This document shows, piece by piece, positions 37,553 through 56,181 of a stretch of DNA of 64,000 nucleotides (its first letter is position 1; every line of letters begins with the position of its first letter). A program made the position numbers and the translations under genes. Under the pieces are notes generated by a model. That model did not search any database and was not told the origin of the DNA. It saw nothing but the letters and a program-made list of their open reading frames with translations. Origin of the DNA: Neptunomonas concharum (lineage in GTDB: Bacteria; Pseudomonadota; Gammaproteobacteria; Pseudomonadales; Balneatricaceae); assembly GCF_008630635.1 (NCBI RefSeq), contig NZ_CP043869.1, positions 744,001 through 808,000 on the forward strand. Direction: 5' to 3'.

Positions 37553-37569
37553 TTGAGAAAGGATTAATT

Positions 37570-38373
37570 ATGTCGATTCAAATAGAGGCAGTGGTAGAGC
37601 TTGCCAGAAAAGCAGGTGTGGCGGTGATGGATATTTACCAAAAGGACTTTGCGGTCTATGACAAATCTGACAGCAGCCCTTTAACGGAAGCAGACATGGC
37701 ATCTCACCATATTTTGGTAGAGGGTTTGCAGGCACTCACACCGTCGATTCCAGTATTATCTGAAGAGTCCGGTGAAGAGGTTAAAGCGGAACGTCTGAAT
37801 TGGGCTGAATATTGGCTGATTGATCCGCTTGATGGTACCAAAGAGTTTATTAAAAAGAATGGTGAATTTACGGTTAATATTGCGTTAGTTCGTGAAGGTG
37901 TTGCGGTTCTGGGTGTTGTGTATGCACCCGCATTGGATGTGATGTATTGGGGCGAGGCTGCTAAAGGTGCATGGAAGCAAGAGAGCAGTAATGCGCCTGT
38001 GGAAATTCAAGTGGCAGATGTTCCGCAAGTCGCTACCGGTTGGCGAGTGGTGGGTAGTCGTTCTCATCAATCAGAGAAGTTCAAAGTTTTTATGAACTGC
38101 TTGCCTGAGGCAGATATTGTCGCGATGGGCAGCTCGTTAAAGTTATGTCTAGTGGCTGAAGGTAAAGCAGACTTGTACCCACGCTTAGGCCCAACCAGTG
38201 AGTGGGATACGGCTGCTGCTCATGCTGTTGTTCTTGCGGCGGGTGGGCAAGTACTCGAAGCGAGTACGCTTAAACCGCTGATCTACAATAGCCGCCCTGA
38301 TACGTTACTAAATCCTTTCTTTATTGTGTGCCCTGCGATCAGTGACTATTGGAAAGCGGCCGCAGAAAATTAA
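37570..38373 (+). CDS. cysQ: 3'(2'),5'-bisphosphate nucleotidase
   Basis: CysQ hydrolyses 3'-phosphoadenosine 5'-phosphate (PAP), the inhibitory by-product of PAPS-using sulfotransferases, to AMP. ATG 37570 is chosen because GAAAGGA lies 7 bases upstream; this gives 267 residues. The inositol-monophosphatase fold motifs are SPLTEADMASHHIL, LSEESGEE (metal-binding Glu), IDPLDGTKEFIKKNGEFTVNIAL (metal-binding Asp set, about residues 86-108) and SEWDTAAAHAV near the end. Next to a PAPS-forming operon and four sulfotransferases it makes the sulfation cycle self-contained. A terminator-like hairpin follows. Confidence 0.96.
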   Translation: MSIQIEAVVELARKAGVAVMDIYQKDFAVYDKSDSSPLTEADMASHHILVEGLQALTPSIPVLSEESGEEVKAERLNWAEYWLIDPLDGTKEFIKKNGEFTVNIALVREGVAVLGVVYAPALDVMYWGEAAKGAWKQESSNAPVEIQVADVPQVATGWRVVGSRSHQSEKFKVFMNCLPEADIVAMGSSLKLCLVAEGKADLYPRLGPTSEWDTAAAHAVVLAAGGQVLEASTLKPLIYNSRPDTLLNPFFIVCPAISDYWKAAAEN

Positions 38374-39424: not shown

Positions 39425-41359
39425 ATGAAAACCGTTGGATTTTTCGCTGCAGGCCATGCTGTTATAGGCCACCTAGATCGTGTTCTTGAGGCAAGGGTTA
39501 AATATTGCCCTCCGTTCTATCCCTCCCAAGGTTTAGATGCGGTAGCTGGGTGGGGATATAAGCCCTCCTCTAAGCGGGCAATGGCTTATGCTGCTAAGCA
39601 TAATCTTCCTTATTGGGCGCTTGAGGATGGTTTTCTGCGATCTATTGGGCTAGGCGTTCATGGTCATCTTGAGCACAGTTTTATCGTCGACCCAGTTGGC
39701 GTTTATTATGATGCGACAAAGCCCTCTTTACTTGAAAACCTGATTATTCATGCACCGCAGGATACGGATAGCCTTGAGCGCGCTAATCGCTGTATTGAGA
39801 TGCTTCGGCAGGCGCGTTTAAGCAAATATAACCTTGCACCTGATGTTTCCGTCTTTTCGCAAAAAGCAAAATCCGCCGTTTTGGTGGTAGATCAGACGTA
39901 TGGTGATACTTCGGTGCGTTTAGGGATGGCCTCCGCTACACAATTTGAAGAGATGCTAAAAGCGGCTATTCACGATAATCCGGGAGCGGAGGTACTCGTC
40001 AAAGTTCATCCGGATGTATTGGCGGGTAAGAAAAAAGGTTATCTGCATGAGCTTGCTAAAGTTTATTCCTGCCGGTTAGTAGCGCAAGAGGTAAACCCTT
40101 GGTCGCTTTTTGAGCGTGTCAGCGATGTCTATGTGGTCACTAGTCAGCTAGGTTTTGAAGCTTTGCTGGCGGGTAAGCGTGTTCACTGTTTTGGTATCCC
40201 CTTTTATGCGGGGTGGGGGCTAACGCAAGATAGGCAGCAGTGCGATCGACGCCAACAGCCCAGATCTTTACAGCAGCTGTTTTTTGCAGCTTATCTGCAG
40301 TATTGCCGCTATATCAATCCCTACACGGGTGAGCGGTGTGCATTTGAAGATACCGTTGCATTACTTTCTTTGCAAAAACAGCATTTAGAACGCTTGCGAG
40401 GAACATGGTTACTCCCTAAAAATCAGCGAACGTTTCTACCTCGTTTGAATCGTGTACTTGGCTTAGCTGCCAATATCCGTATCGCTTCTGATGGTGTTAG
40501 CGGTTGCGCAGATAAGCCTGCCCTCGTGAATAGTTATTGGTTACAAGATAAATCTCAGGCTTCACGGGTAATTAAGGTTCAGGCGTTAGACTTGTTCTCA
40601 GTGGGTCCATATAAAGGTGTGGGCTACGGGTTAAGCAATGGTATTGAAGTTGTCAACGAGTTACTCAATAAGTCTGAACTTTTGGGTTTGTTGAATCAAT
40701 ATGATTTATTATCGTATGAGCAGGATGCGGCTTCGGGTCTATATACTGTTTACCGGCGCTATTTGCAGCAACAAATTTCAGAAACGTACACCTGCTTTTT
40801 TCAGTTTCCTAAGGATCGAAAAATTCTATTAGTGGTGGAAGATAGAGAGCAGTTATCTGCAGAAGATGAACTCGTGCTGCTTAATTTGATTCGTGAAGCA
40901 AATCCCACTGCGTATATTATCTATGCCAGAAAAGACTGGAATGCTGATAAGTTTGCTATATGTCCTTTACCTTCAGTATGCGATAGAGGGCTTGCTTATG
41001 ATGATATTTTGCCTTTTATCCAATGGGTGGATGAGGTGCATACGCATTCATCACTTATAGGATTTAAAGCATTGGTGCTGAGTGTGCCTGTGGTGACTTA
41101 CAGCGATGCTTTTTATGCAGGTTGGGGACTAACAGAAGATAATATGTTGAGTATAAAAAGGGCTCGATGCTTAACCTTAGAAGAGCTCGTCTATATGTTG
41201 CTGATAAAATATGTGACATATCATGATCCGGATACGGGGGATGTGATTAATTTTGAAACTGCTCACCTTTTAGCTCAGCGTTATGCTCATTATCCTTATG
41301 GTTTAACCTTAGCGTCGCGTATCAAACGTGTGATACGGTCTATCTTTCTAAATACCTGA
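39425..41359 (+). CDS. kpsC: Capsule beta-Kdo transferase KpsC
   Basis: KpsC builds, with KpsS, the short poly-beta-Kdo linker on lysophosphatidylglycerol at the reducing end of group-2 capsules. The 644-residue product has two related glycosyltransferase halves as expected: first GWGYKPSSKRAMAYAAKH, WALEDGFLRSIGLG, VLVKVHPDV and FGIPFYAGWGLT; second DEVHTHSSLIGFKALVLSVPVVTYSDAFYAGWGLT. The paired FYAGWGLT blocks show the internal duplication. The length is close to the E. coli enzyme (about 675). ATG 39425 follows the previous gene by five bases. The SDR gene starts 29 bases after its end. Confidence 0.96.
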   Translation: MKTVGFFAAGHAVIGHLDRVLEARVKYCPPFYPSQGLDAVAGWGYKPSSKRAMAYAAKHNLPYWALEDGFLRSIGLGVHGHLEHSFIVDPVGVYYDATKPSLLENLIIHAPQDTDSLERANRCIEMLRQARLSKYNLAPDVSVFSQKAKSAVLVVDQTYGDTSVRLGMASATQFEEMLKAAIHDNPGAEVLVKVHPDVLAGKKKGYLHELAKVYSCRLVAQEVNPWSLFERVSDVYVVTSQLGFEALLAGKRVHCFGIPFYAGWGLTQDRQQCDRRQQPRSLQQLFFAAYLQYCRYINPYTGERCAFEDTVALLSLQKQHLERLRGTWLLPKNQRTFLPRLNRVLGLAANIRIASDGVSGCADKPALVNSYWLQDKSQASRVIKVQALDLFSVGPYKGVGYGLSNGIEVVNELLNKSELLGLLNQYDLLSYEQDAASGLYTVYRRYLQQQISETYTCFFQFPKDRKILLVVEDREQLSAEDELVLLNLIREANPTAYIIYARKDWNADKFAICPLPSVCDRGLAYDDILPFIQWVDEVHTHSSLIGFKALVLSVPVVTYSDAFYAGWGLTEDNMLSIKRARCLTLEELVYMLLIKYVTYHDPDTGDVINFETAHLLAQRYAHYPYGLTLASRIKRVIRSIFLNT

Positions 41360-41388: not shown

Positions 41389-42150
41389 ATGCCGCTTAAA
41401 ATTGTGATTACAGGTGCAACAGGCGCTATCGGTTCTGCGTTAGCGAAAGCCTATGCGGTTGATGGTCATTCCTTGGTATTACAGGGACGCCGGTCTGCTT
41501 CTTTAGAGAAATTGTGTGATGAATGTCAGTTATTAGGTGGTAAGGCGACCTTCCACGCTTTTGATTTAACCGACAGCGAGCAAACTCGTTCATGGTGTGA
41601 AATGTTACTGGCTGATGGGGTACCTGATCTCGTATTCGCTAATGCAGGTATGAATATTAATACGGGGCAGCAGCACCAGGGAGAGCAGTGGTCACAGATC
41701 GAAGCGCTCTTAGATTTGAATGTTAAATCCACCCTTCAGTTAGTGCATCATATGGCGTTAGCAATGAAACAGCGTGAAGCTGGTCAACTGGTATTGATTA
41801 GCTCTTTAGCCGCATTTTATGGCTTGCCGGATACGCCCAGTTATAGCGCAAGTAAAGCTGCAATCAAAGCTTATGGTGAGGGTATTCGCGGTTGGTTGGC
41901 ACCGTTTGGTGTAGGGGTTAGTGTGGTGATGCCGGGTTATGTCGCATCGGATATGTGTCATGAAATGCCGGGGCCAAAGCCTTTTTTATGGACACCTGAG
42001 CGAGCCGCAAAAACGATTAAACGTCGTGTCGCTAAAAACCATCCGCGCATCAGTTTTCCCTTTCCACTGAATATAGGTTGTTGGGGGCTGGCTGCATTAC
42101 CGCCGGGTGTGTCGCAAAAGCTACTTAAGTGGTTAGGCTATGGCGGATAA
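41389..42150 (+). CDS. SDR-family oxidoreductase (RkpH-like, possible 3-ketolipid reductase)
   Basis: A 253-residue short-chain dehydrogenase with VITGATGAIGSALA (NAD(P) site), FANAGMN, LISSLAAFYG and the YSASK catalytic Tyr/Lys, then VVMPGYVASDMC. The C-terminus is hydrophobic (FPFPLNIGCWGLAALPPG), suggesting a membrane-bound lipid substrate, as in 3-ketodihydrosphingosine reductases. It sits between kpsC and the LtaS-like gene, with the oxoamine synthase and type I synthase close by. The same set occurs as rkpH beside rkpA/G/I/J in the Sinorhizobium rkp-1 region. Reduction of the 3-keto group left by the oxoamine synthase is the inferred role. It overlaps the next gene by 11 bases. Confidence 0.88.
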   Translation: MPLKIVITGATGAIGSALAKAYAVDGHSLVLQGRRSASLEKLCDECQLLGGKATFHAFDLTDSEQTRSWCEMLLADGVPDLVFANAGMNINTGQQHQGEQWSQIEALLDLNVKSTLQLVHHMALAMKQREAGQLVLISSLAAFYGLPDTPSYSASKAAIKAYGEGIRGWLAPFGVGVSVVMPGYVASDMCHEMPGPKPFLWTPERAAKTIKRRVAKNHPRISFPFPLNIGCWGLAALPPGVSQKLLKWLGYGG

Positions 42151-43810
42151 AATGGACGTTATCATCGTGAGCATGACCTTATTGTTTGATCACCTCATAG
42201 TGCCTTTGCTGGTTGGTTTGCTGTTTGCCTTTTTAGTTGAGTTGCTGCTTATACCCAAAGCTCAGGTGTTCTGGAAGCGTCCTTTAGCTGCTAACTTATT
42301 GCATGTGGGCGGTTGGCTTTTTTTCTTCTGTTTTGAATTATTGTTATTCCAGCGCCCTTGGTTTGCGATGGCCAATGTGGTGGCATGGCATTTGGTACTC
42401 ATTTTGGTTAACAACGCCAAATATCATGTTTTGCGAGAGCCATTTCTATTTTACGATTTTGAATACTTAGTGGATGCCATCCAACATCCCCGGCTATACC
42501 TGCCTTTTGTAGGAGTAATGAATGCTGTTATTGCCTTGATTGTCTTAGTAGTTGTGATTGCTGTTGGCGTGTTCATTGAGCCTAGCTTGTTGCACAGTGG
42601 ACAAACCGATTTCTGGGTAGTGGTCTGGTTGTGCTTACTTGTCATCTCACTTTGTATGCTGGTGATGGGGTATCGACGTATTGATCAAAATATGCCGCTA
42701 CATTTGGATCCAGAACTGGATTTCAAGCAATTAGGGCAGGGTGGTTTTCTTTGGTATTACGCAAAGCTACACTTCTCGCACCCACAGCTTAAGCATGCCA
42801 AAAAACTGGTGCGTAAAAGTGCTGGATTATTTCGCAAGAAGAAGCGATCAGCACCTGCGCCGCAGTCTTTTACAACCCCGCCTGTATCCGACACGCACAT
42901 TCACTCGCTACCGGATATTGTGTGTGTCCAGAGCGAGTCTTTTTTTGATCCTCGTATCTATTACGATTGTGTAGATCCTGCCGTTTTGGCGGGGTTTGAT
43001 CAGATTTGTCAGCAGGCGTTGAGCTATGGTTCTCTGAACGTTCCTGCTTGGGGGGCAAATACTATTCGCACCGAAGCTGCATTTTTATCAGGTATTGCAC
43101 CACATGCCATGGGTGTTAATCAGTTCAGCCCCTATCGTCATTTCCTTAAGAACCCACAAACGACGGTGGCACATCAGTTAAAAGCAATGGGTTATAAAAC
43201 GGTTTGTATTCACCCGTATCCGGCCTCGTTTTATCAACGGGATAAACTTTACCCTCAACTGGGGTTTGATCGTTTTATTGACATTGAGGCCTTCGATAGC
43301 AAAGATAAAGTAGGACAATACATTGGTGATCATGCGCTAACGGAGCAGGTGCGCCAATTATTGAGTCATACATCAGGCCCTTCGTTCATTTACATCATTA
43401 CGATGGAAAATCATGGTCCTTTGCATCTAGAAAAGCCAACGGATGAGGATATAGAGCGTTTCTATGTTGATCAGCAACCGGTTGGTTGTGAGGATCTCAG
43501 TGTCTATCTGCGCCACTTACATAATGCGGATCGTATGGCAGTAGATCTATCCAATTTGCTAAAAACACGAAATAACGGTGGTTTGCTGTGTTGGTATGGT
43601 GATCATGTGCCTATTATGTCTAAAGTTTATCAGTGCTTAGGAGCGCCCAGTGGTGATACTCGCTACTTTATTTGGAGTAGCCACAAAGGGCAAAGCGCTG
43701 AGGCTCCAAAAAAGGAGCAATCCAAAGCGGTTTCCGGTTTGGCTAGCGAGTTGATGTCAGTAGTTCTCGATACACAAAAGCGGAATTATCATGAAGGTGA
43801 TACGGGATAA
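42140..43810 (+). CDS. LtaS/sulfatase-family membrane protein (RkpI-like)
   Basis: A 556-residue protein with about five N-terminal membrane helices (residues about 15-180) and a C-terminal alkaline-phosphatase-superfamily domain like lipoteichoic acid synthase and phosphoethanolamine transferases. Candidate metal ligands and nucleophile are in CVQSESFFDP (Glu266), ANTIRTEAAFLSG (Thr311), the MENHGP segment and WYGDHVP. Enzymes of this type transfer phosphoglycerol or phosphoethanolamine, or cleave such groups, on the outer face of the inner membrane. RkpI of Sinorhizobium has the same layout. Here it may decorate or process the capsule lipid, by inference. It overlaps the SDR gene (11 bases) and, convergently, the kpsS end by 22 bases. 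Confidence 0.88.
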   Translation: MADKMDVIIVSMTLLFDHLIVPLLVGLLFAFLVELLLIPKAQVFWKRPLAANLLHVGGWLFFFCFELLLFQRPWFAMANVVAWHLVLILVNNAKYHVLREPFLFYDFEYLVDAIQHPRLYLPFVGVMNAVIALIVLVVVIAVGVFIEPSLLHSGQTDFWVVVWLCLLVISLCMLVMGYRRIDQNMPLHLDPELDFKQLGQGGFLWYYAKLHFSHPQLKHAKKLVRKSAGLFRKKKRSAPAPQSFTTPPVSDTHIHSLPDIVCVQSESFFDPRIYYDCVDPAVLAGFDQICQQALSYGSLNVPAWGANTIRTEAAFLSGIAPHAMGVNQFSPYRHFLKNPQTTVAHQLKAMGYKTVCIHPYPASFYQRDKLYPQLGFDRFIDIEAFDSKDKVGQYIGDHALTEQVRQLLSHTSGPSFIYIITMENHGPLHLEKPTDEDIERFYVDQQPVGCEDLSVYLRHLHNADRMAVDLSNLLKTRNNGGLLCWYGDHVPIMSKVYQCLGAPSGDTRYFIWSSHKGQSAEAPKKEQSKAVSGLASELMSVVLDTQKRNYHEGDTG

Positions 43811-45039
43811 GATTCCAAGAGAACTTCAAGGGGAGATTGGCTTTCTTGTAAGCGCTTCATCGCATTGTTAACGCCAATACGGATGCCGTCAGAGCTAAAA
43901 AAACCTCCATTAATCTGTGTGGCGTGGATCACTATCTGCCGGAATGCATCAAATAGCTGTGGGTCTGGATAGATGGTGTCGTGCCAGAAAGCATCGAGCG
44001 AACACTGGGCTGTTAGTCCTGGCATATCATAGATGGCTTGGCCTAGTGCCAGTGTTCGGCATTGGTGAGCTAATGCGGTGATACCGACGGTACTATTTAC
44101 TACGACGACACCCTCACATGCATCTAGTAACGCGGGTAAGGAGCCACTTTCTAAATAGAGAATACGTCCTTCAATGTCTTTTTCTTTTGATAGCTGTTTG
44201 ATTATTGCAGCAAAATTAGTGAAGCCTGTATCCAGTGGGTGGTTTTTGATTACCAACAGTGCATCTTGTGGTGCATACTCTGTGAAAGAATCCACAACAG
44301 TATGGACCAGATCAGACATGGATGTGATATCAGAATGTACCTGAATTTGGCTATCACTATCCAGTTGCAGAGGGAGTAGGTAGAAAGGTTTGTTATTGCT
44401 AAGCAAGTGATGAATAGTGCGTTTATCGCGCGTTTCATACCAAGGCATTTGGGAAAATCGAATTCCCCAACCGGCTAGCTCTAAACCTGAAATTGCAGGG
44501 CGGTGGGTTTTATAACCGTGATAAAAAATAGGGTTCAGTAAGCCAGGAAAGTGGTAGCCGATTTCATGTAAAGCCAGCAGAGTAATGGGGTTGCTAATAG
44601 ATTGACTGGGCGGGGCGGGGGGGAGATGCTTAGCGGCTTCAAGGTACCAGTTGGCCTCTTTTGGAAGCTGAGAAAAACCATTAATACCGCCTTCTTCTAG
44701 CGTCAGCCAATCGGGTCTTAAGTAACCTTCATCAAAGATATGTAACCTAAGCCCCAGCGCTTTTGAAAGCGGCACCGCCGCTGCATTAACGGGGCGAGTA
44801 TCGCCCAACATTATAATATCGGTAATGCCATAATCGAGCACTTTTTTGCGGAGGTACTCAGGTAGTGCTGATGCTTTATCACGGAACTGCCAAGAAGGTT
44901 TATTGCGCCAGTAGATATAATCGCCCGCATTAAAATTGATGCGAAACACATGCGCTTTTGCTTGGGTTAATGCATCCCCCAGTTTGGAAAAAAATGGGCT
45001 GGTGGACCCCTGTAAAAACAGAAAATTTCTACTTTTCAT
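43789..45039 (-). CDS. kpsS: Capsule beta-Kdo transferase KpsS
   Basis: A 416-residue KpsS. It begins with FLFLQGSTSPFFSKLGDAL, the hallmark N-terminus, followed by IIMLGDTRPVN, LRLHIFDEGYLRPDWLTLEEGG and, later, LLVIKNHPLDTG and VVVNSTVGITALAHQCRTLALGQAIYDMPGLT. KpsS adds the first beta-Kdo to lysophosphatidylglycerol and KpsC extends it. The gene is last in the - strand operon after the type I synthase and oxoamine synthase (15 bases behind the latter). This physically links lipid-forming genes with capsule-anchor enzymes. Its 3' end overlaps the LtaS-like gene by 22 bases. Confidence 0.95.
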   Translation of the reverse strand: MKSRNFLFLQGSTSPFFSKLGDALTQAKAHVFRINFNAGDYIYWRNKPSWQFRDKASALPEYLRKKVLDYGITDIIMLGDTRPVNAAAVPLSKALGLRLHIFDEGYLRPDWLTLEEGGINGFSQLPKEANWYLEAAKHLPPAPPSQSISNPITLLALHEIGYHFPGLLNPIFYHGYKTHRPAISGLELAGWGIRFSQMPWYETRDKRTIHHLLSNNKPFYLLPLQLDSDSQIQVHSDITSMSDLVHTVVDSFTEYAPQDALLVIKNHPLDTGFTNFAAIIKQLSKEKDIEGRILYLESGSLPALLDACEGVVVVNSTVGITALAHQCRTLALGQAIYDMPGLTAQCSLDAFWHDTIYPDPQLFDAFRQIVIHATQINGGFFSSDGIRIGVNNAMKRLQESQSPLEVLLESYPVSPS

Positions 45040-45054
45040 GGCAATCCAGTCAAA

Positions 45055-46374
45055 CTAAATAAAAGCTTTTAGATGAGCTAAGGTTTTCATCACTTGCGCT
45101 TCAGTGTGTTCGCAGGAGAGGAAAAAACGTAACCGTGCACTACGTTCGGGAACAGCTGGGTAGACAATAGGCTGTACATTAATTCCCTGTTTGAACAAGG
45201 TATCAGATGCATTAGCTGCTCGCATAGAGCTGCCGAATATAATGGCTATAATCGCGATACCCTCACTGCTACCTGTATTGAAGCCCATATCTTTAGCCTG
45301 TTTTAGGAAAAACTGAGAGATATGATGCAGCTTTTTAATGCGTTCTGGCTCTTGCTGCATAAGGTGCAGCGCCGCCAGAGAGGCGGCCGCAGTAGGGGCC
45401 GGAATGCCAACACTGTATAAAAAACCGGGAGCCATATAGCGTAAATGTTCGATAAGCGCAGATTCTCCTGCAATGTAGCCGCCGCACCCTGCCAGTGTTT
45501 TACTGAGGGTGCCCATCCAAATATCCACTTCCCGACCCGCTATTTGGAAATGCTCCCGTAAGCCTTTACCTGTGGAACCTAACACCCCAAACGAATGAGC
45601 CTCATCTACCATCAAAAAAGCAGAAAACCGATTTTTTATTTCTACAAGTTTATTCAGGTCAGGGAAGTCGCCATCCATACTGAACATTCCCTCCGTCACA
45701 ATTAAAACTCGCTCAAATTGAGTGCGATGCTCGAGCAGTGTCTTCTCTAGTGCAGCGAGATTGTTGTGAGGAAACGATAGCCGTTTTGCACCAGATAGTT
45801 TGGCGCCAACCAGCAAACTATTGTGGCTAAACTCATCGTGAATAATCAGATCCTTCGGCCCAAACAGGTGCCCAATCGTCGATACATTCGTTGCATGGCC
45901 ACTCACAAAAACTACGGCATCATCGACCTCATAGCACTCTGCAATAGCCGTTTCGAGCGTTCGATGAACAGGGCGCTCCCCCGATACAATACGACTGGCA
46001 GAAACAGAGGTGCCGTATTGGTTGATCGCTTTTACAGCGGCCTCATTTACATCGGGGTGTCCAGATAAATCTAGGTAGTTATAGCTGGCAAAGTTGATCA
46101 TCTCCTGATCATCAATGTAGCTGGTGGCTCCTGCATTACCTTGATGGACTCTAAAGAAGGGGCTGGTTATACCTAACGAGTGTGCACCTTCTCTAATGAT
46201 CGTCATTTGCTGATAGCCTGGTAGCTGATCGAACTGACAATACTTTTGTTCCTGTTGATTAGCGCGAATCAGTGAGCCAATGCCGGTGTTTGGGCTTTCA
46301 GCTTTTTTCAGCTTATGCTTGAGTGTCTGTTGTATCAGTTTCTCTTTAAGTTGTTGAGACAGTTTACTGTTCAT
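45055..46374 (-). CDS. Alpha-oxoamine synthase family PLP enzyme (RkpG-like)
   Basis: A 439-residue PLP enzyme of the alpha-oxoamine synthase family (BioF, KBL, ALA synthase, serine palmitoyltransferase). Visible marks are FASYNYLDLSGHPDV, GTSVSASRIVSGE, the PLP-contacting FVSGHATN and IIHDEFSHNSLL, FLMVDEAHSFGVLG (Asp/His for the pyridine ring) and TLSKTLAGCGGYIAG with the Schiff-base Lys (about residue 290). These enzymes condense an acyl thioester with an amino acid and lose CO2. The N-terminal about 80 residues are longer than in BioF, as in PKS-linked members. Its ATG overlaps the stop of the type I synthase (ATGA), so it probably takes its substrate from that synthase's ACP. RkpG of Sinorhizobium is the closest known case. 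The amino acid used is unknown. Confidence 0.93.
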   Translation of the reverse strand: MNSKLSQQLKEKLIQQTLKHKLKKAESPNTGIGSLIRANQQEQKYCQFDQLPGYQQMTIIREGAHSLGITSPFFRVHQGNAGATSYIDDQEMINFASYNYLDLSGHPDVNEAAVKAINQYGTSVSASRIVSGERPVHRTLETAIAECYEVDDAVVFVSGHATNVSTIGHLFGPKDLIIHDEFSHNSLLVGAKLSGAKRLSFPHNNLAALEKTLLEHRTQFERVLIVTEGMFSMDGDFPDLNKLVEIKNRFSAFLMVDEAHSFGVLGSTGKGLREHFQIAGREVDIWMGTLSKTLAGCGGYIAGESALIEHLRYMAPGFLYSVGIPAPTAAASLAALHLMQQEPERIKKLHHISQFFLKQAKDMGFNTGSSEGIAIIAIIFGSSMRAANASDTLFKQGINVQPIVYPAVPERSARLRFFLSCEHTEAQVMKTLAHLKAFI

Positions 46375-49300
46375 ACTGATGAGTCTTCTTCTGCAAGGTG
46401 CTGGCTGGCAACCTGTTTGGTCATCTCATCTTCATCGCTCTGCTCACCGCGTAGTTGGTTCATCAGTTTATGGCTGAGTTTTCCCAAAGTAGGTGTTTCA
46501 CTTAATGCCATCACTGAAACACTAATACCTAGCTTGGATTCAATTGCCGACATCAACTCTACCCCCATCAGTGAATCCAGACCCATGTCGTACATGGAGC
46601 GGTTAGGGTCTAGCTTATCTTCAGATGTCATGAGGATTTTACTGAGTTCTGCTTTCAATAATGAGAGCAACTTCTCTGTTAACTCGTCATCGCTCATTGC
46701 TAGAAGTTCATTGATGTCCAACCGGTTATCTTCGCTTTGGTCATTATCGGAATTGGCGAGCGCAATCTCTCTAAATTTTGGTTGAGCTGCGCTCGGTAAG
46801 AATCGGCTAAGTGGTCCCCATTCGAATTCAAGTACCCCTTGACTACCAATACCGTGGAGTAACATCTGTTCTAATGCTTCCAAGGCTTTATCTGAAGGTA
46901 AGGCTTGCCCACCTATACGGCTTTGTAATGCATCCTTGATTTTCTCATTACGCGCGAGGAATCCTACATCATCAATCGCACCCCACCGAGGGCAAGTAGC
47001 AGGTTTACCACGACGAATGCGGTCTGCGGCCAATCCTTCTAACCAGTGGTTTGCAGCTACATAACTGCTTTGCCCTGGGTTGCCGAGCAGTGTTGTTGCA
47101 GAGGAGTAAAGTACGAAGAACGAAAGATCCAAATGATCAGTCAGTTCATCAAGCCATAGCGCCCCTGCGATTTTAGGTGTTAAAACACGCTCCAGTTGTT
47201 CTTGGCTAAGGTTCATTGCAAGGCTATCTTCAATGACTGCTGCAGCATGAACAACCCCTTTAATTGGAGGCATTTTTTCGGCGCTATTGTCTAGCAATTC
47301 AGCTAGTGAGTCCCGGTTGCTAACATCACAGGCGCACGCTAGTACATTAATGCCTTGAGCTTCTAGTTGTTGCACAGCTTCTACGGCATTATCGTTTCCT
47401 AAGCCGCTTCGGCTAATCAGAACCAAGTGACGAGCCCCTTTGCTAACCAACCATTGGGCCGTTTTTAAGCCAAAGCCCGCCAGCCCGCCAGTGACGAGGT
47501 AACTGGCATTTGGTTCCAGTGTCAGCACCTCGCTTGGTGGAGTCGTAATTGGCTGTTTAGGTCGAATCGGCTGATCATAGCCGATAACTATTTTTCCTAT
47601 CTGCTTAGCTTGCTGCATATAGCGGAACGCATCTACAACATGATTTGCATCAAACAGTGTGTAAGGCAGTGGATAAAGCGTGCCGTCTTGGAATAGCCCC
47701 ATCATCTCTTGGAAAAGACGGTGAGTTAGCTCTGGCTTTGACTGCATCAGCTGATCAGCGTCTATACCAAAATAACTGATATTATTACGGAAAGGGCGCA
47801 GACCAATCTGGGTATTCTCGTAGAAATCGCGCTTACCTAACTCTAAGAATCGGCCAAAGGGTTTGAGCACCCGTAGGTTTTGGTTAATGGCTTCTCCGGC
47901 GAGGGAGTTGAGAACGACATCCACTCCCACTTCTTTCGTGTCTAATAAGATCTCTTCAGCGAAAGTCAACGAACGGGAGTCATAAATATGCTCAACACCC
48001 ATCATGCGCAGGAAGTCTCGTTTGCTTTCAGAACCCGCCGTTGCATAGATCTCGGCCCCTATCCATTGGGCTACTTGAATCGCTGCAATGCCAACACCTC
48101 CGGCCGCGCCGTGGATCAGGATTTTTTCACCAGGTTCAAGGCGCGATAAGTAGTGCAAGGCATAATAAACTGTAAAGAACGTGCTTGGGATTGTGGAGGC
48201 CGCTTCAAATGAAATACCCTCCGGAATATGTGCAATAGCATTGGGTTGCGTAACCACTGAATCGCTAAAGCTGGCAGGGCCAAAGCCAACGACCGTGTCG
48301 CCTGGCTGGTAGTCGCTTATCTTATCCCCAACTGCGGTGACAATACCTGCAAATTCGAGTCCGAGTGTAGGCCCTGCAAAACCATTTTCGATCGCCTCGT
48401 CAGACAGCATCCCTAAGGTGTACATGACATCACGGAAGTTAAGTCCAGTGGCTTTAATGTCTACGCGGATTTGGTCTTCATGAAGTGGACTGATCTCTTT
48501 GGCGTACCATTTTAAACTCTTTAGCTGCCCCGGTGTTTCAAAACCCAAGTAATAACTAACTGCAGGTGTACTGGCACATTCAGACGATGACTGCAGGCTA
48601 GGTACAGGGTTTTTACGTAGGCGAGGTGCATAACGCTGACCCCGTTGATCGATGAAGAGCTCCTGCTCAACTGAAGGTACTGCATATTCAGCATAGAGTG
48701 TCTGGTAAACCGGCGTAGTGAGCGATTTAGGTAGATCAATCAAATGCAGTCTTGTGTGCTGCGACTCATTCATGAGAGTGCGTACAAACCCCCAAATAGC
48801 AGAATCATCGGATTGGTGATGTTCCCAGCTCGCATTAGGGTCATCACAGGGGTATAAGCTTGCAACATGTCGAGTTAATACCCAGAGGTTAACTTCTGAA
48901 GCGGATGTCTCAATTGCTTTGAATAGGTTGTTCAGCCCCTTGCAGCGATCATTGATCTGCTGGAGTTTCATTTGCGATGTCGGTGCTGATTGTAATCCTA
49001 TGGCGAACAGCAGATTGTCAGAAACATTCTGAGTCAACCAGCTCGCGCAGGCTTCCAATGTCCAATTTGCAAAATCAGATAACGAAACGAGCGTGTTTTG
49101 TGGATAGTTATGACCGTCAGTCGGAAACAGAGAATTATCCGAATTGTCCGTTAGGACATGCCAGTGTTCTAAGGTTATAGGGAGTTTGATTTCCTCTGGG
49201 CGCTGGTATTGGCCGATCACCAGCTGTTGTTGGGATGTCGTATACCCTTTTAGGATGTGGCAGTCATCAATACCATACTCTGCAAGTAGATCAGCCCACT

Positions 49301-52300
49301 GTGACGGTGATAGTTGTTGAGAGTGCCCTGCTGTTAACCATTCTGGGTGGCTTCTCATTAACAGCTCTAACCAGTGCGATGGTGTGGGTACTATCAGTAT
49401 CAGATGGGCATTATCAGCCATAAGCACCGATAAGTGTCTCATCATGATGCCAAAGTCGGATAGAGTGGCCCCATTAATATTAATAATAACCAATTGGTGT
49501 TGGGGAGCTTGTTCCTCTTCTATATCGAGCAGCGGAATAACATTCAGGTAGGGGAATTCCTCCTGGAGATGCTCCGCTTTATTAATAGCGCCGCTATTGA
49601 GGCTGGTAAAGCTGACATCATACTGTTTAGGGTCGAGTGCCTCGTTAAAGTAACGGCAAATCTCAGGAGATGATACACCAACCTCAAGGATACGTAGGCG
49701 TTGCACATTTGCTTGTGCGGATAACTGCTGAACTTTATCTATCAAGGCGCTTGCTACATCATGAGCAAATAACGGTGTATTACGTACCTGTAAGAGGGTG
49801 TCATATGCCTCTAGATTAACAGAAGGCAGCTGGTCGGGAGCCTCTAACCATCGAGATAGCTGAAGGTTAAAACGTCCTAGTGCATGAGTAACAGCAAACA
49901 CCTCAGGGTAGTCCCGCGCCATCATCTGCCAGATTAGATTGGCGGGAATAGCTTCATCGTCATTCTGAGGTGTTATTTGCCAGCCTTCACTGGTTTCTGT
50001 GATAAGTTGACTCTGGGCGGCACTGTGAATCAAACACTGCAGCAGAGGCTCACTTTCTGGGTAAGCTTCAGTGAATTCTGCGATATATGTGCTATTAAAT
50101 AGTCCTCTGGCTGCCAATTTAGGCACATGCTCGGTAAGAATAGCATTGGCTAGTGCATCAAACAGTGGGTCTATCTCTTCCTGATAACGCTGGCATTTGA
50201 CTAAGGTTTCTGAGGAAAGGCAATCTTGTAATACCAGTCTCAGATCCATAGGAGTAGCCGAGAGTTTTTGCGCAGGTGTGCCAGTTAAGTGATAATCTAA
50301 ATAATCTACCCGTTGCGTTGCTGACTTTTTCACACGTACCGCTTTAAAGCGGGCTTCTTTGATTGAAGCGATATGCACCCCGTCGATATCGAATAGATCA
50401 AATTCAGCGGTAATTGAATGGGGTGAACGCTTTAGAAGCCGAGCTTGAGCCACATGGAGCGACTTGGCTTGTGTTCTAACAAAAATGCGGCCAACTCTTA
50501 CGGGGACATATGCAATCCCTTCATTATTGTTAAGTTGCTCTTTCAAGAACTGGATGATTAATTGAAAAGTGCAGTCCAGTTGCGCAGGGTGAAGCCAGTA
50601 GCCACTTTGATTAAATTGTGGGTCAAATACCCCCAACACGCGATCACCTTCTGCCCAGCCATGAGTAATCGCTTGAAAAGTCGGGCCGTAATCTAGTCCA
50701 ACTGACATCATCATGCTGAGATGATCTGTCAGGGTCAAATCATAGGGACGTCTTGGCAAGGCAGGGCAGGGCTGGCTAAGATGCAGTGGGGTGGGTGCCT
50801 TCAAAAAGCGACCAGCCGCATTCTTTGTCCAGTGTTCACCTTCGACTAAATCGCGACTGGAAATAGTGATTTCGCCGCTTTTGGGTTGCAGTGAAACGCG
50901 AGTCTTCTTGCTATGTTGGTTATCGAGTGTCAGAGGATTATAAATCTCTATCTCTTCAAGCTCTACAAACTCTGTGGGAGTATTTAAATGAGTCGCTGCT
51001 AGCAATAACTCAATGTAACCTGTCCCGGGGAAGATGACATGATCATCGACGACATGATCAGCCAACCATGGATAGGCCTGGGTATCCAGTGTGTTTTCCC
51101 ATGTATGTAAAAACTGCTTAACCGGGTAGCCTAATAAATCATGCTGCTTTTGGCGCATGAGTAGCCCAATGCTGTTAGCAGACTCAGGGTGCCAAAGCCT
51201 TTCTCGCTGCCACGGATAGGCAGGTAGCTCAATTCTCTCTGCAGGTTGCGCAAAAAGACCGGAAGATTTTATGTCTTCACAAATGAGTGCTTGGGCTGCG
51301 GCCCTTTCGATAAGCTCGATTTGATCTTTATGTTTGGTCAGCGTTGTGAGCGTGAGTCCTGTAAGATCTGCATGTCGAAGCGCATCGTTTAAATAATTTT
51401 TGAGGACAGGGTGAGCGCCTATTTCAATAAAAGCTGTATAGCCATCTGCAATCATCTGATCGATAGCGGATTGAAATAGCACCGGTTGGCGAATGTTATC
51501 CCACCAATAATCAGCGGTGAGTGTGCTTCCATCCAGCAGTTCGCCTGAAACGGTTGAGTAGAAAGGCAATTGGGAAGCAGAAGGTGTTAAATTGCTAAGG
51601 CTGATCTTTATTTGTTCTTCGACTGAATCCATTTTGGAACTATGGAATGCATAATTCAGATTTAGTCGACGGTAAAAAGTACCCTGCTGTTTTAAATGGG
51701 ACTCTATTTGAGAGAGTTGATCAGGGTTGCCCGCTAAGGTGACGCCTCTTATGCTGTTGATTCCAGCTAGTTCTACTTCCGTTAAGGCGAGTTCTGTAAT
51801 AAGTGCTTGTGTGCTCTGGGCATCAAAGCCAACAGCGGTCATTTCACCAAGTCCGGCTGTTTTGCCCTGGTGTTGACTGCGGTAGTAGATGACATGAACC
51901 GCTTGCTCTAGCGTCAGGGCGCCACTGGCCCACGCTGAAGCGACTTCGCCAACACTGTGACCAGTCACTGCTGATGGCATTACATGGTGAGCACGAAGGA
52001 GTTCGGTTAATCCAACTTGCAGTGCGAACAACGCTGGCTGTGCGATCTCCGTGAGCGCCAAACGTTCCTCGCCATTGTTACCTTGTAGCTCCTCAATTAG
52101 TGAGAAGCCAGCCAGCGGTGTGAAATAACCATCAACCTGCTCGACAGCAGCTCGAAAAACTTCTGAGCTTTGGAGTAATGTATTGCCCATTTTCTCCCAC
52201 TGGCAACCATTACCGGAGTAGACGTAAGCTATCCTGCTGGAAGGTGTGTCATTGTAAAAAGGGTCGACCTTATCAGTAAGTAAAGATGATAATTGTGCAG

Positions 52301-53792
52301 CCGCATCTGTGCAGTTTTCTGCCCAAATTGTATGTACGATGGGGTGGATTTCGCGATGTAAGGCGAAATTATAAGCCAGTGCATAAAAGGAATCACTAGC
52401 AGTTTCTAGCAAGGTTATCGCTTGACGAACCGACTGCTCCAGTGCGTTTATATCCCTAGCTGAGATAATAAGTGGAATCTTTTTTGATGGTGTTTGAGCA
52501 GGAGGCGTTGCCTGAACTTTGGGTGCTGTCTGCAAGATAACATGCGCATTCGCTCCCCCAAAACCAAACGAATTAACACCAATGGTAAGGGTTTTTTCTG
52601 TGGATAGTGGCATGTTTTCGGTAACGACACGAATATTCCAATCCTCAAAATGAATATTAGGATTGGGGGTTTTCATGCTGATAGTAGCAGGCACTTCTCG
52701 ATGCTTAAGGCAATAAATTGCTTTCGCTAGGCCTGCTATACCCGAGGCTGCTTCTAAATGCCCCATATTACTTTTGACCGAACCAATAGGTAGAGGCGTA
52801 CTTCTGCCTTTCCCTAAAGCCATACTGATGGCTCGGGTTTCTATAGGATCACCAACCGCTGTGCCAGTACCATGAGCCTCAACATAATCAAGTTGTTCCG
52901 GTGACAAGCCTGCTTTTTGATAGGCAGCTGTCATTAAAGCGGCTTGTGCTTGGGGGTTAGGAACCGTCAGGCCTGACTTATAACCATCTGTATTTACTGA
53001 GGAGCCTGCAACAACCGCGAGGATAGCATCACCATCTCTAATCGCTGCGTCGTAATCTTTCAGCAGGAATATGCCGCCCCCTTCGGATCGAACATAACCA
53101 TCACCCTCGGCATCAAAAACTTGGCATTTACCCTGTTTGGAAAGCATGGTTGCCTTAGAAAAAGCAATAAAGCCATAAGGGTGTAAGTGTAAGCTGACAC
53201 CGCCGGCTAAGGCTTGCTCCGTTTCGCCGGAGCGAATGGATTGACACGCCTGATGAAAAGCAACCATCGAAGAGGAGCAAGCGGTATCCAGGGCAATGCT
53301 GGGGCCATGCAGATCAAAGAGATAGGAGATTCTGTTAGCTGCAATACTGGAGGTATTTCCGGTCGCAACACTAGAGTCGACGATGCTTAAATCCTCGGCA
53401 AAACGGTACGCATAATCAGCACTAGCGATACCGATAAAAACCCCGCAGTCGCTGCCTTTCAATGATGAGGGTGGTTTACCTGCATTTTCAATCGCTTCCC
53501 ATGTCATTTCGAGCAGTAAGCGTTGCTGCGGGTCCATCAGGGATGCTTCACGAGGAGAAATACCAAAGAAACTTGCATCAAAGCCCGAAACATCTCCTAG
53601 CGAACCTGCTTTGAAGGTGTAGCTAGTACCAGGGTGTTTGGTGTCAGGATGTGAAAAAGCGTCAAACGACCAACGGCCTGATTCTACCTCGGACACTAAA
53701 TCACGATGGTCAAGAAGGTCGGACCAAAAGGTCTGGGGGGTTGTGCCAGGAAAGCGAAAAGAAGTACCTATAATGGCAACACGTTTATCCAT
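46371..53792 (-). CDS. Type I polyketide/fatty-acid synthase, fully reducing, without thioesterase (RkpA-like)
   Basis: A 2473-residue iterative-type megasynthase. Domain order: KS (about 1-430; Cys172, His307, His345), AT (about 520-830; GHSVGE with Ser613, YAFHS with His717, suggesting malonyl units), DH (about 885-1180; His913 and Asp1073), a degenerate methyltransferase-like region (about 1220-1560; EVGVSSPE lacks the glycine-rich SAM loop), a structural pseudo-KR part, ER (about 1760-2070; HGAAGGVG), KR (about 2090-2290; TGGLAGFG, SSYVAAN) and ACP (about 2370-2450; GLDSL, phosphopantetheine Ser near 2405). No thioesterase follows. KR, DH and ER together allow a saturated chain. It is coupled to the oxoamine synthase by ATGA overlap. 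RkpA of Sinorhizobium is similar in type and size. Confidence 0.95.
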   Translation of the reverse strand: MDKRVAIIGTSFRFPGTTPQTFWSDLLDHRDLVSEVESGRWSFDAFSHPDTKHPGTSYTFKAGSLGDVSGFDASFFGISPREASLMDPQQRLLLEMTWEAIENAGKPPSSLKGSDCGVFIGIASADYAYRFAEDLSIVDSSVATGNTSSIAANRISYLFDLHGPSIALDTACSSSMVAFHQACQSIRSGETEQALAGGVSLHLHPYGFIAFSKATMLSKQGKCQVFDAEGDGYVRSEGGGIFLLKDYDAAIRDGDAILAVVAGSSVNTDGYKSGLTVPNPQAQAALMTAAYQKAGLSPEQLDYVEAHGTGTAVGDPIETRAISMALGKGRSTPLPIGSVKSNMGHLEAASGIAGLAKAIYCLKHREVPATISMKTPNPNIHFEDWNIRVVTENMPLSTEKTLTIGVNSFGFGGANAHVILQTAPKVQATPPAQTPSKKIPLIISARDINALEQSVRQAITLLETASDSFYALAYNFALHREIHPIVHTIWAENCTDAAAQLSSLLTDKVDPFYNDTPSSRIAYVYSGNGCQWEKMGNTLLQSSEVFRAAVEQVDGYFTPLAGFSLIEELQGNNGEERLALTEIAQPALFALQVGLTELLRAHHVMPSAVTGHSVGEVASAWASGALTLEQAVHVIYYRSQHQGKTAGLGEMTAVGFDAQSTQALITELALTEVELAGINSIRGVTLAGNPDQLSQIESHLKQQGTFYRRLNLNYAFHSSKMDSVEEQIKISLSNLTPSASQLPFYSTVSGELLDGSTLTADYWWDNIRQPVLFQSAIDQMIADGYTAFIEIGAHPVLKNYLNDALRHADLTGLTLTTLTKHKDQIELIERAAAQALICEDIKSSGLFAQPAERIELPAYPWQRERLWHPESANSIGLLMRQKQHDLLGYPVKQFLHTWENTLDTQAYPWLADHVVDDHVIFPGTGYIELLLAATHLNTPTEFVELEEIEIYNPLTLDNQHSKKTRVSLQPKSGEITISSRDLVEGEHWTKNAAGRFLKAPTPLHLSQPCPALPRRPYDLTLTDHLSMMMSVGLDYGPTFQAITHGWAEGDRVLGVFDPQFNQSGYWLHPAQLDCTFQLIIQFLKEQLNNNEGIAYVPVRVGRIFVRTQAKSLHVAQARLLKRSPHSITAEFDLFDIDGVHIASIKEARFKAVRVKKSATQRVDYLDYHLTGTPAQKLSATPMDLRLVLQDCLSSETLVKCQRYQEEIDPLFDALANAILTEHVPKLAARGLFNSTYIAEFTEAYPESEPLLQCLIHSAAQSQLITETSEGWQITPQNDDEAIPANLIWQMMARDYPEVFAVTHALGRFNLQLSRWLEAPDQLPSVNLEAYDTLLQVRNTPLFAHDVASALIDKVQQLSAQANVQRLRILEVGVSSPEICRYFNEALDPKQYDVSFTSLNSGAINKAEHLQEEFPYLNVIPLLDIEEEQAPQHQLVIININGATLSDFGIMMRHLSVLMADNAHLILIVPTPSHWLELLMRSHPEWLTAGHSQQLSPSQWADLLAEYGIDDCHILKGYTTSQQQLVIGQYQRPEEIKLPITLEHWHVLTDNSDNSLFPTDGHNYPQNTLVSLSDFANWTLEACASWLTQNVSDNLLFAIGLQSAPTSQMKLQQINDRCKGLNNLFKAIETSASEVNLWVLTRHVASLYPCDDPNASWEHHQSDDSAIWGFVRTLMNESQHTRLHLIDLPKSLTTPVYQTLYAEYAVPSVEQELFIDQRGQRYAPRLRKNPVPSLQSSSECASTPAVSYYLGFETPGQLKSLKWYAKEISPLHEDQIRVDIKATGLNFRDVMYTLGMLSDEAIENGFAGPTLGLEFAGIVTAVGDKISDYQPGDTVVGFGPASFSDSVVTQPNAIAHIPEGISFEAASTIPSTFFTVYYALHYLSRLEPGEKILIHGAAGGVGIAAIQVAQWIGAEIYATAGSESKRDFLRMMGVEHIYDSRSLTFAEEILLDTKEVGVDVVLNSLAGEAINQNLRVLKPFGRFLELGKRDFYENTQIGLRPFRNNISYFGIDADQLMQSKPELTHRLFQEMMGLFQDGTLYPLPYTLFDANHVVDAFRYMQQAKQIGKIVIGYDQPIRPKQPITTPPSEVLTLEPNASYLVTGGLAGFGLKTAQWLVSKGARHLVLISRSGLGNDNAVEAVQQLEAQGINVLACACDVSNRDSLAELLDNSAEKMPPIKGVVHAAAVIEDSLAMNLSQEQLERVLTPKIAGALWLDELTDHLDLSFFVLYSSATTLLGNPGQSSYVAANHWLEGLAADRIRRGKPATCPRWGAIDDVGFLARNEKIKDALQSRIGGQALPSDKALEALEQMLLHGIGSQGVLEFEWGPLSRFLPSAAQPKFREIALANSDNDQSEDNRLDINELLAMSDDELTEKLLSLLKAELSKILMTSEDKLDPNRSMYDMGLDSLMGVELMSAIESKLGISVSVMALSETPTLGKLSHKLMNQLRGEQSDEDEMTKQVASQHLAEEDSSV

Positions 53793-54168: not shown

Positions 54169-56013
54169 TTATTCGTCCAAGAAGCTGCGTAAGTGATCGG
54201 AGCGGCTCGGATGGCGCAGTTTTCTTAACGCTTTAGCTTCGATTTGACGAATACGTTCACGCGTTACATCGAACTGCTTGCCGACCTCCTCAAGGGTGTG
54301 GTCGGTGTTCATATCGATACCAAAACGCATGCGCAGTACTTTGGCTTCTCTGGCAGTTAAGCCTGCGAGTACTTCGCGCGTTGCTTCACATAGTCCTTCG
54401 CCTGTTGCTGAGTCCACAGGGGAGGTGTGATTAGAATCTTCGATGAAATCCCCAAGGCTTGAGTCTTCATCATCACCAATGGGTGTCTCCATGGAGATAG
54501 GTTCTTTGGCGATTTTGAGTACCTTACGAATTTTGTCCTCAGGCATCTCCATGCGTTCGGCAAGTTCTTCCGGTAAAGGTTCACGCCCCATCTCCTGAAG
54601 CATCTGTCGTGAGATGCGATTCAGCTTGTTGATGGTTTCAATCATATGTACCGGTATACGAATGGTACGAGCCTGATCGGCAATAGAGCGTGTAATCGCT
54701 TGTCGGATCCACCATGTTGCGTAAGTAGAAAACTTATAGCCACGGCGATATTCAAATTTATCCACGGCTTTCATCAGGCCTATATTGCCTTCCTGAATGA
54801 GGTCGAGGAACTGTAAGCCGCGATTAGTGTATTTCTTGGCAATAGAGATAACCAAACGTAGGTTGGCTTCTACCATCTCTTTTTTGGCGCGACGGGCGCG
54901 AGCTTCGCCAATAGACATGCGGCGGTTAACATCTTTAATTTCCGCCAGTTCTATTTGGGCATCTCCCTCGATTTGGATTAGCTTTCTTTGCGCTCTTTGT
55001 AGGTCTGGTAGGTTGACGCTTATAGAACGAGCATAGCTTTCACCAGAGTCGGCAAGTTCTTGGAACCAGTTGGTATTGGTTTCGTTGCCTGGGAATGCTT
55101 TGATAAAATCTGCGCGGGGCATTTTGCAGCGTTGCACGCAGATACGCATAATAGTGCGCTCTTGTTGGCGTGTTCTATCAATGAAGTCTCTGACGCGTGC
55201 TACGAGGATGTCGTAGTAGCGAGGCGTTAGTTTGACAGGGGAGAAAGCTTCGCATAGCTCTTCAAGGGCTATCGAGAACGCTTTGCTCTGGCGCCCTTCT
55301 TTTTCTTGAAGGCTGTAGAGGTGAGCTAGTTTTTCTCTGATATCAGTGAAGCGCAGGCGTGCCTCTTCGGGATCAGGGCCGCGATCGCCATCCTCTTCGT
55401 CATCTGTGCTGTCATCGTCATCATCGTCGTCGTCACTATCGCTGTCATCATCTTCGACAATGGCGTTAGGTTCAATAATGACAGCTTCTTCTATCGGGCT
55501 GTCGGGATCTATGTAGCCACTAAAGATATCGCTAAGGCGACCTTCTTCCTGTAGGACTGTATCGTATGCATCAAGCACAAATTCGACAGAGCCTGGGAAG
55601 CTGGCTAACGCAGACATAACTTCGCGAATGCCTTCTTCGATGCGTTTGGCAATTTCGATTTCGCCCTCGCGCGTAAGCAGCTCAACCGTGCCCATTTCGC
55701 GCATGTACATACGAACAGGGTCGGTTGTTCTGCCTGCATCGGACTCTACAGCGGCCAGTGCGGCAACGGCTTCTTCATCGGCTTCTTCAGCAGAGTCGCC
55801 TTCAGTCATTAAAAGCGTTTCGGCATCAGGAGCTTCTTCAGACACGGAGATACCCATGTCATTAATCATGCGGATGATGTCTTCCACCTGATCGGGATCG
55901 GCGATATCTTCCGGAAGGTGGTCGTTGACCTCGGCGTATGTTAGATAACCCTGTTCTTTGCCGCGGGCGATCAGTTCTTTTAGACGAGATTGCTGCTGAG
56001 AGGTACCTGACAT
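54169..56013 (-). CDS. rpoD: RNA polymerase primary sigma factor RpoD (sigma-70)
   Basis: The housekeeping sigma factor, 614 residues from ATG 56013 (AGGA 6 bases upstream; a TTG at 56034 is less likely). Region 1.1 is at the N-terminus ([23 protein letters not shown]), 1.2 near [21 protein letters not shown], 2.1-2.4 in [20 protein letters not shown] and [13 protein letters not shown], region 3 next, and 4.2 in [20 protein letters not shown]. The nonconserved region carries an Asp-rich run (about residues 190-215) encoded by GTC/ATC-type triplet repeats on the + strand. It is last in the order rpsU-yqeY-dnaG-rpoD, the macromolecular-synthesis operon. Confidence 0.99.
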
Positions 56014-56181
56014 AGATGTCCTACGATGATGCAATTGTGACGAAAAAGTAAGCGCGACATTATAACGTCGACGCTCGTTTAAAGCTAGCTTATCCCATAC
56101 GGCAAATTACCTATGCCATAGGTTGATATTAACTTTAGTCTAGTTTCGTAGATATGGGGGTAGATTGGGGTAAAACAAGTA

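Follow-up and report, generated by a model that had tools for sequence, protein, structure and literature searches.

A polyketide synthase-linked module, very probably for sphingoid lipids, as the possible source of the capsule lipid end in Neptunomonas concharum

The capsule locus of Neptunomonas concharum was analysed in a 64-kb stretch of DNA (contig NZ_CP043869.1, positions 744,001 to 808,000; here called the window) from a genome that consists of a single contig of 3.56 Mb. In this locus, genes for a type I polyketide synthase (PKS), an alpha-oxoamine synthase (AONS), an SDR-family reductase and an LtaS-like enzyme lie among the kps genes of an ABC-transporter capsule, and we consider it likely that this module supplies the lipid end of that capsule as a sphinganine-phosphoglycerol on which KpsS would start the polysaccharide. 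That the module makes a sphingosine-like lipid is very probable, and the lipid class is well supported by analogy with characterised homologues, while the anchor role is suggested by comparison with relatives. What the analysis establishes directly is which genes are present, that their active-site residues are conserved, where the proteins fall in trees, and that KpsS goes with the module. What the fatty-acid-synthase-like genes do in rkp and wcb capsules is a question that dates from the 1990s; new in this study is a phylogenetic test of the anchor idea.

In the proposed route, the synthase would build a long, saturated and unbranched acyl chain on its own ACP, AONS would release this chain with L-serine and loss of CO2 to give 3-ketosphinganine, the SDR would reduce the latter to sphinganine, and the LtaS-like enzyme would move phosphoglycerol from phosphatidylglycerol to sphinganine. 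The resulting sphinganine-phosphoglycerol would resemble lyso-phosphatidylglycerol in that it carries one chain on a phosphoglycerol head, and a dedicated KpsS would then put the first 3-deoxy-D-manno-octulosonic acid (Kdo) on its glycerol, after which KpsC would extend the linker and KpsMTED would export the polymer. In E. coli, KpsS acts on (lyso)phosphatidylglycerol, with the first beta-Kdo placed on its glycerol and KpsC extending (PMC7694667, PMC10148158). Should the acceptor come from the module, one would expect KpsS to vary with it, with no such expectation for KpsC.

For the KpsS phylogeny, rows were drawn from 58 of 398 sampled genomes of the phylum (match at 1e-40), from E. coli and plasmid records and from the AONS loci described below, the window KpsS being entered twice (from the window and as L001). 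The first labelling, which counted as module any row with the module in its stretch or AONS anywhere in its genome, gave three changes for PKS, two for plain and three for LtaS-only rows. After the first tree, row L205 (G104) was relabelled plain, its AONS being on another contig with no PKS match in its 4-kb stretch, and the PKS, AONS-only and LtaS-only rows were merged into one module label that was used for the later trees. The 97 rows of this first set, 52 module and 45 plain, are split by one branch (Shimodaira-Hasegawa-like approximate likelihood ratio test, SH-aLRT, 96), and among its rows with 5 kb on both sides LtaS is present in 19 of 27 module rows versus 0 of 40 plain rows. Both the chromosomal and the plasmid KpsS of E. 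coli (L188 and L189) fall in the plain clade, and no LtaS, SDR, AONS or PKS was found in these two stretches; the E. coli group 2 capsule shares with the window its KpsD/M/T/E-type export, KpsC and KpsS, and differs from it in the KpsS clade. The E. coli anchor is (lyso)phosphatidylglycerol (PMC7694667, PMC10148158).

KpsC behaved differently. In the 48 loci with a full-length KpsC (13 module, 35 plain), KpsS requires a single change (bootstrap 98, SH-aLRT 94), whereas KpsC of the same loci shows six changes, at least five of them forced, and a single clade is rejected (approximately unbiased test, p 1e-55). A KpsT tree of 26 rows, only five of them plain, gave 4 changes versus 4.6-4.7 for shuffled labels. 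The notion that whole kps loci travel as two kinds is accordingly not supported, as KpsC mixes and KpsT, with its five plain rows, displays no split.

The association was also examined within one family (f91, which includes G340), where 26 of 29 genomes have KpsS and both KpsS types occur among the members. Twenty of the 24 further KpsS genomes were taken (G439, G441, G450 and G456 were left out; L221 and L229 were already in the earlier tree), and labels were assigned from neighbouring genes before tree building. An LtaS-like gene stands beside KpsS in seven of the 20 new regions and in none of the other 13, and no PKS or AONS profile match was obtained in any of the 20 stretches. The enlarged tree of 117 rows (59 module, 58 plain) was again split by one branch (SH-aLRT 96), with all seven new LtaS-plus KpsS proteins inside the module clade (9/9 with the two earlier ones) and all 13 LtaS-minus proteins outside it. 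Over the whole tree, LtaS occurs in the stretch of 39 of the 59 module-clade rows versus 0 of 58 others (Fisher 2e-16, on rows that are not independent). With a strict label (LtaS, AONS, PKS or a strong SDR match within the stretch), 114 of 117 rows agree with their clade; the three that disagree, L242 and two rows of L245, belong to genomes that carry AONS elsewhere. This split of KpsS with the module lends the anchor role indirect support.

Regarding the product, Pseudomonas fluorescens MYb115 without SgaA (PKS) or SgaB (AONS) makes no C24, C26 or C28 sphinganines, species 154 Da heavier were interpreted as phosphoglycerol sphingolipids, the condensation with acyl-CoA by purified SgaB shows a virtually exclusive preference for L-serine over alanine and glycine, and the SDR SgaC was proposed as the ketone reductase (PMC12134224). 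The original prediction for this locus, namely chain building, decarboxylative condensation with an amino acid and ketone reduction to a sphingoid-like lipid, agrees with the 2025 findings on a homologous PKS/AONS pair (PMC12134224). The window shares PKS, AONS and SDR with SgaAB(C), which was, unlike the capsule setting considered here, reported as a secondary-metabolite cluster; the locus tags of MYb115 (PKS RS19805, AONS RS19800, SDR RS19775; PMC12134224) are spaced such that four genes would fit between AONS and SDR. In the Pseudomonas locus L065 this interval holds PhyH, KpsC, GNAT and LtaS genes, with KpsS after the SDR, and MYb115 may well have the same genes. The AONSs of Pseudomonas loci with this matching layout are 57% identical to that of the window. 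The main text of the MYb115 report uses none of the terms capsul, rkp, wcb, LTA synthase, KpsS, polysaccharide and sulfatase (PMC12134224), and nothing joining these sphingolipids to bacterial capsules was found among the matches listed from the open PubMed Central literature; the consulted portions of PMC12220298, PMC2945791 and PMC5507470 name wcb genes or capsule anchors and no sphingoid lipid.

The synthase has, by Pfam, the domain order KS-AT-DH-ER-KR-ACP and no thioesterase, as the original prediction had claimed, and thus has the make-up of the SgaAB type (a single-module PKS with all reducing domains and without a thioesterase), for which iterative use would be presumed. The KS C/H/H, AT S and FH, DH H and D, ER G, KR S/Y/N and ACP S residues are identical in all 73 aligned synthases, the one from the window included, and the ACP serine 2407 (GLDSL), the probable site from which the chain leaves, is among those kept in 73/73. 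A degenerate methyltransferase-like motif in the stretch between DH and ER is not conserved across the 73 sequences, and a methylated chain was considered unlikely because of this degeneracy. Read from these motifs, the synthase would use a malonyl extender with full reduction and without methyl branches.

AONS scored below the cut-offs of the models for BioF (354.6 against 426.45 bits), KBL (256.5 against 493 bits) and ALAS, and the comparison with serine palmitoyltransferase (SPT) that the original prediction had called for placed it below all three SPT cut-offs (302.7 against 640, 271.6 against 500 and 208.2 against 670 bits). In a quick tree of 92 rows it forms one group with 61 other query-type rows (support 86), outside which lie 12 BioF, 8 KBL, 7 ALAS and 3 SPT rows; the tree took 21 of the 80 loci named below, ALAS row L131 was removed as short, the duplicate SPT loci L127-L129 were omitted, and L002 and L003 (host BioF and KBL) were omitted and entered again as L138 and L156. 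Its closest neighbours in the tree come from the same genus and family, followed by a set with Halomonadaceae and Marinobacterium, and the Sinorhizobium meliloti AONS (47% identical) lies elsewhere in the same group. A placement within BioF or KBL without PKS-linked relatives, the outcome that was to count against the original prediction, did not occur, as most rows of the group have a PKS match in their stretch (the seven without are L031-L035, L037 and L100). A second AONS subgroup, consisting of L031, L033, L034 and L037 (with L032), has no PKS match in its 4-kb stretch.

Elsewhere, the host genome has one BioF and one KBL match at 1e-120, and no SPT was found in it at the thresholds used. 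A stray BioF or KBL was rejected on the basis of model cut-offs, tree position and these host copies, and a classical SPT, with which the module would share its reaction and sphinganine product, was set aside on the basis of the SPT cut-offs and the separation from the three SPT rows of the quick tree. Residues K292, D257 and H260, presumably of the active site, are invariant in 20/20 sequences. In Planktothrix (L042) AONS forms the C-terminal part of the PKS in one frame, and in L028 a single frame encodes a KR and then AONS, fusions that fit AONS action on a carrier-bound chain. Cysteate was considered as a substrate, given that solved-structure relatives of AONS include a cysteate-condensing enzyme and that sulfate-activation genes are nearby, and was put aside because SgaB prefers serine and the PAPS-linked genes (PAPS, 3'-phosphoadenosine 5'-phosphosulfate) better suit sulfated sugars. 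By analogy with SgaB, the window AONS would condense serine and release the chain. In the SDR, N111, S139, Y152 and K156, which we take to be the catalytic tetrad, are invariant in 16/16 sequences, consistent with the putative ketone reduction.

The grouping of PKS, AONS, SDR, LtaS and KpsS goes beyond a chance cluster. Of 589 related loci from a profile scan of genome contigs, the best 80 were kept; counts are minima, as flanks are at most 10 kb and several loci end at contig ends. The synthase is beside AONS or one gene away in 78 of the 80 (tblastn; exceptions L049 and L100), one or more of LtaS, SDR, KpsS, KpsC, KpsT and KpsE are in the stretch for 59, and by profile LtaS is present in at least 38, SDR in at least 33, KpsS in at least 21 and KpsC in at least 13. 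The 80 loci include Halomonas, Vreelandella, Salinicola, Marinobacterium, Bordetella, Achromobacter, Pseudomonas, Burkholderia, Paraburkholderia, Nitrosomonas europaea, Acidithiobacillus, Thiothrix and Accumulibacter. On a Planktothrix plasmid, the annotated stretch around PKS-AONS shows no capsule genes. The S. meliloti pSymB locus L038, which we take to be rkp-1 (rkpA, G, H, I and J; the record gives no rkp names), bears out the comparison drawn in the original prediction, as it has the same five genes in the order PKS-AONS-SDR-LtaS-KpsS with a four-base PKS/AONS overlap by annotated coordinates. The predicted overlap in the window is likewise seen, as the ATGA (46371-46374) shared by the AONS start and the synthase stop. 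As in the rkp-1 and wcb modules (the latter being gene names, such as wcbR, that we presume for Burkholderia), the window has an RkpA/WcbR-type synthase next to AONS and an SDR, an LtaS-like enzyme and KpsS/RkpJ in one locus; it differs from them in having SDR and LtaS on the other strand and KpsC adjoining.

Plasmids of Paraburkholderia and Caballeronia have the order SDR-LtaS-PKS-LpxC-AONS. Unlike the window, Burkholderiaceae relatives have PKS and AONS separated by an LpxC-like gene, and AONS is mostly followed by a GNAT gene: the LpxC-like deacetylase gene was seen in L040 (14037-17031), L041, L086, L105, L112-L114, L116 and L119-L121, from Burkholderia, Paraburkholderia, Caballeronia, Ralstonia and Cupriavidus, with GNAT following AONS in all except L041. 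These two genes suggest steps of amine acylation or deacylation.

A pairing with kps genes peculiar to this genome was rejected, as the pairing occurs in other plasmid records and loci. WcbR-type synthases beside kps genes were already in print, with wcb/rkp clusters bearing a WcbR/RkpA PKS among capsule genes (PMC3908369) and Halomonas piscis combining KpsC/D/S with WcbQ/WcbR (PMC10752968). The earlier question of an unusual anchor gains indirect support from the KpsS split, while the combination with kps genes proves to be the usual setting of the module and no oddity of this genome.

A rather improbable alternative is that the sphingolipids from the module stay free, in the membrane or secreted, and that the module is just a neighbour of capsule genes, the capsule keeping lysophosphatidylglycerol. 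The sphinganines and phosphoglycerol-sphinganines of MYb115 were indeed measured as free lipids and given a host role (PMC12134224). Moreover, nine of the 24 AONS genomes (1e-80) of the 398-genome sample lack a KpsS match at 1e-40. Yet at these same thresholds KpsS occurs in 15 of 24 genomes with AONS versus 43 of 374 others (Fisher 2e-8), the split that follows the module is seen in KpsS and absent from KpsC (as it is from KpsT, on few rows), and rkp mutants reportedly show K-antigen defects.

The sphingoid base may also be supplied by another route. All three KpsS genomes with LtaS and without PKS/AONS (G340, G353 and G363) have an SPT above the model cut-off, versus 2 of 14 module genomes and 1 of 41 plain ones (Fisher 6e-4, LtaS-only versus the rest; the comparison covers the 58 KpsS genomes of the 398-genome sample). 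SPT was found in 3 of 60 genomes of a phylum sample. LtaS with SPT and without PKS/AONS is as expected if PKS and AONS supply the sphingoid base and LtaS acts after them. A Novosphingobium plasmid stretch (counting the plasmid only) has SDR, LtaS-like, KpsS and fatty-acid hydroxylase genes and no PKS/AONS, and an Acidisoma plasmid stretch has AONS, SDR, LtaS-like, KpsS and hydroxylase genes and no PKS. The hydroxylase genes of these two capsule stretches (PF04116; L191:8620-9144 and L193:15765-16310) possibly serve hydroxylation of the sphingoid base.

The sulfatase-type domain of the LtaS-like protein aligns with solved structures of the GacH phosphoglycerol transferase and of lipoteichoic acid (LTA) enzymes (E 2.5e-10 to 1.2e-5), and the protein does not reach the cut-off of the NCBIfam LTA synthase model (41.8 against 970 bits). 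E266, T308, H425, D488 and H489, invariant in 22/22 relatives, are presumably the metal-binding residues and threonine nucleophile that characterise, with the sulfatase fold, the LTA synthase family. By analogy, the enzyme may be a phosphoglycerol transferase that makes the sphinganine headgroup, which is the least certain step of the route, not least because of the side of the membrane on which it would act. A slightly less probable alternative than free lipids has sphinganine, free or as a phosphate, as the anchor, the LtaS-like enzyme then decorating the polysaccharide with phosphoglycerol on the periplasmic side, much as GacH and OpgB modify their glycans. In favour of this, GacH and LTA synthases, enzymes that work on the outer side of the membrane, are among the solved relatives; against it, phosphoglycerol-sphinganines are probable in P. 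fluorescens, the polymers of these loci are presumably diverse, and LtaS stays beside KpsS where the stretch has no PKS, AONS or SDR profile match (L221, L225 and L229), as a headgroup enzyme would. Least probable by some way is that KpsS, with an unchanged acceptor, stays with SDR, LtaS, PKS and AONS as genes that move together. These genes often adjoin, and 16 alignment columns show little or no variation in either KpsS clade; positions such as N35, G190 and L362 discriminate between the two. Against this reading, the tie recurs across named alpha-, beta- and gammaproteobacteria, persists where the locus has no PKS/AONS and holds inside a single family, and the corresponding KpsC proteins cross between the two sides five times or more.

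Several points weigh against sphinganine-phosphoglycerol as the capsule acceptor. Enzymes of the LtaS type have their catalytic domain on the periplasmic side and KpsS is on the cytoplasmic one, so that the lipid would have to flip inward. Shared inheritance of a KpsS-SDR-LtaS cassette could separate the KpsS proteins in this way with no acceptor specificity involved; one tight clade makes up 26 of the 45 plain rows in the 97-row tree, reflecting uneven sampling, and for 20 of the 59 rows of the module clade the fetched stretch lacks LtaS. The SDR and LtaS-like proteins of S. meliloti are only 25-26% identical to those of the window, and SPT also occurs in the plain-KpsS genome G140 and in the module genomes G132 and G351. 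No capsule-end chemistry of this type was found among the matches listed from the open PubMed Central literature, and the phosphoglycerol-sphinganines of MYb115 were assigned by mass and measured as free lipids. Finally, Bordetella pertussis and B. bronchiseptica are listed as users of the common system, as KpsS and KpsC are conserved (PMC10148158); other Bordetella in the 80-locus set carry the module.

The gene set of the original prediction (SDR, LtaS-like, KpsS, AONS and a 2473-residue reducing synthase) was found in full at the positions it gave (Table 1).

Table 1. Features of the capsule locus and its lipid module in the window
Feature	Position	Strand	Basis or remark
Synthase, predicted iterative fully reducing type I, RkpA/WcbR/SgaA type	46371-53792	-	2473 aa, KS-AT-DH-pseudoMT-ER-KR-ACP
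Acyl carrier domain of synthase, residues 2378-2441	46470-46661	-	PF00550 3.3e-13
AONS, PKS-linked, RkpG/SgaB type	45055-46374	-	Pfam, NCBIfam comparison, tree, alignment
KpsS-type transferase of first Kdo, RkpJ/WcbO type	43789-45039	-	PF05159 1e-80; trees
LtaS-like enzyme, sulfatase-fold domain	42140-43810	+	PF00884; structural relatives
SDR, SgaC/RkpH type, putative 3-ketosphinganine reductase	41389-42150	+	PF00106 2e-36
KpsC, two-module beta-Kdo transferase	39425-41359	+	Two PF05159 (Capsule_synth) stretches; outside the 41389-53792 module range
KpsD-like	15290-16981	+	Pfam Poly_export
KpsM	16981-17784	+	Pfam ABC2_membrane
KpsT	17781-18437	+	Pfam ABC_tran
KpsE	18459-19556	+	Profile from window KpsE ORF matches annotated E. 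coli KpsE in L188

The capsule genes of the window span at least 186 to 53792, with glycosyltransferases and dTDP-sugar genes followed by KpsD/M/T/E, a sulfate-activation block and KpsC, and the presence of KpsC/KpsS with a KpsMT-type exporter identifies an ABC-transporter (group 2) capsule. KpsC has the solved KpsC structure 6mgb as its best match (E 1e-90). KpsS has a single Capsule_synth stretch, falls below the cut-off of the NCBIfam KpsS model (304.5 against 600 bits) and gave no match in a solved-structure search at E 0.1. The 3' ends of the convergent LtaS-like and KpsS genes share 22 bases (43789-43810). To the right of the module lie tsaD and two genes that we take to be rpoD (54169-56034) and dnaG (56182-57978).

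The block at 30506-38373, which adjoins the capsule genes, encodes a sulfotransferase-like ORF, an adenosine 5'-phosphosulfate (APS) kinase/EF-Tu-like protein (presumably of CysNC type), a CitMHS/sulfate-type transporter, an inositol-phosphatase (presumably CysQ-like) and a 566-aa protein with a C-terminal PAPS-reductase domain (presumably CysD-like) and an N-terminal half without assignment. This block probably supplies PAPS for a sulfated polysaccharide. An ORF with a PAPS-reductase domain is also close to KpsS in L229 (G363).

Taken more broadly, the balance tips, if by a little less than for the window itself, towards two kinds of ABC-transporter capsules, one in which KpsS acts on lysophosphatidylglycerol and one in which a separate KpsS clade would act on sphinganine-phosphoglycerol, its base coming from PKS/AONS/SDR or from a housekeeping SPT and its phosphoglycerol from the LtaS-like enzyme, so that the lipid genes of rkp-1 and wcb would be anchor genes. 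If this is true, the statement of a shared (lyso)phosphatidylglycerol anchor would hold for only part of these capsules, the sequence of KpsS alone would tell the type of capsule anchor, and bacterial sphingolipids of a newly found class would acquire a role in the cell.

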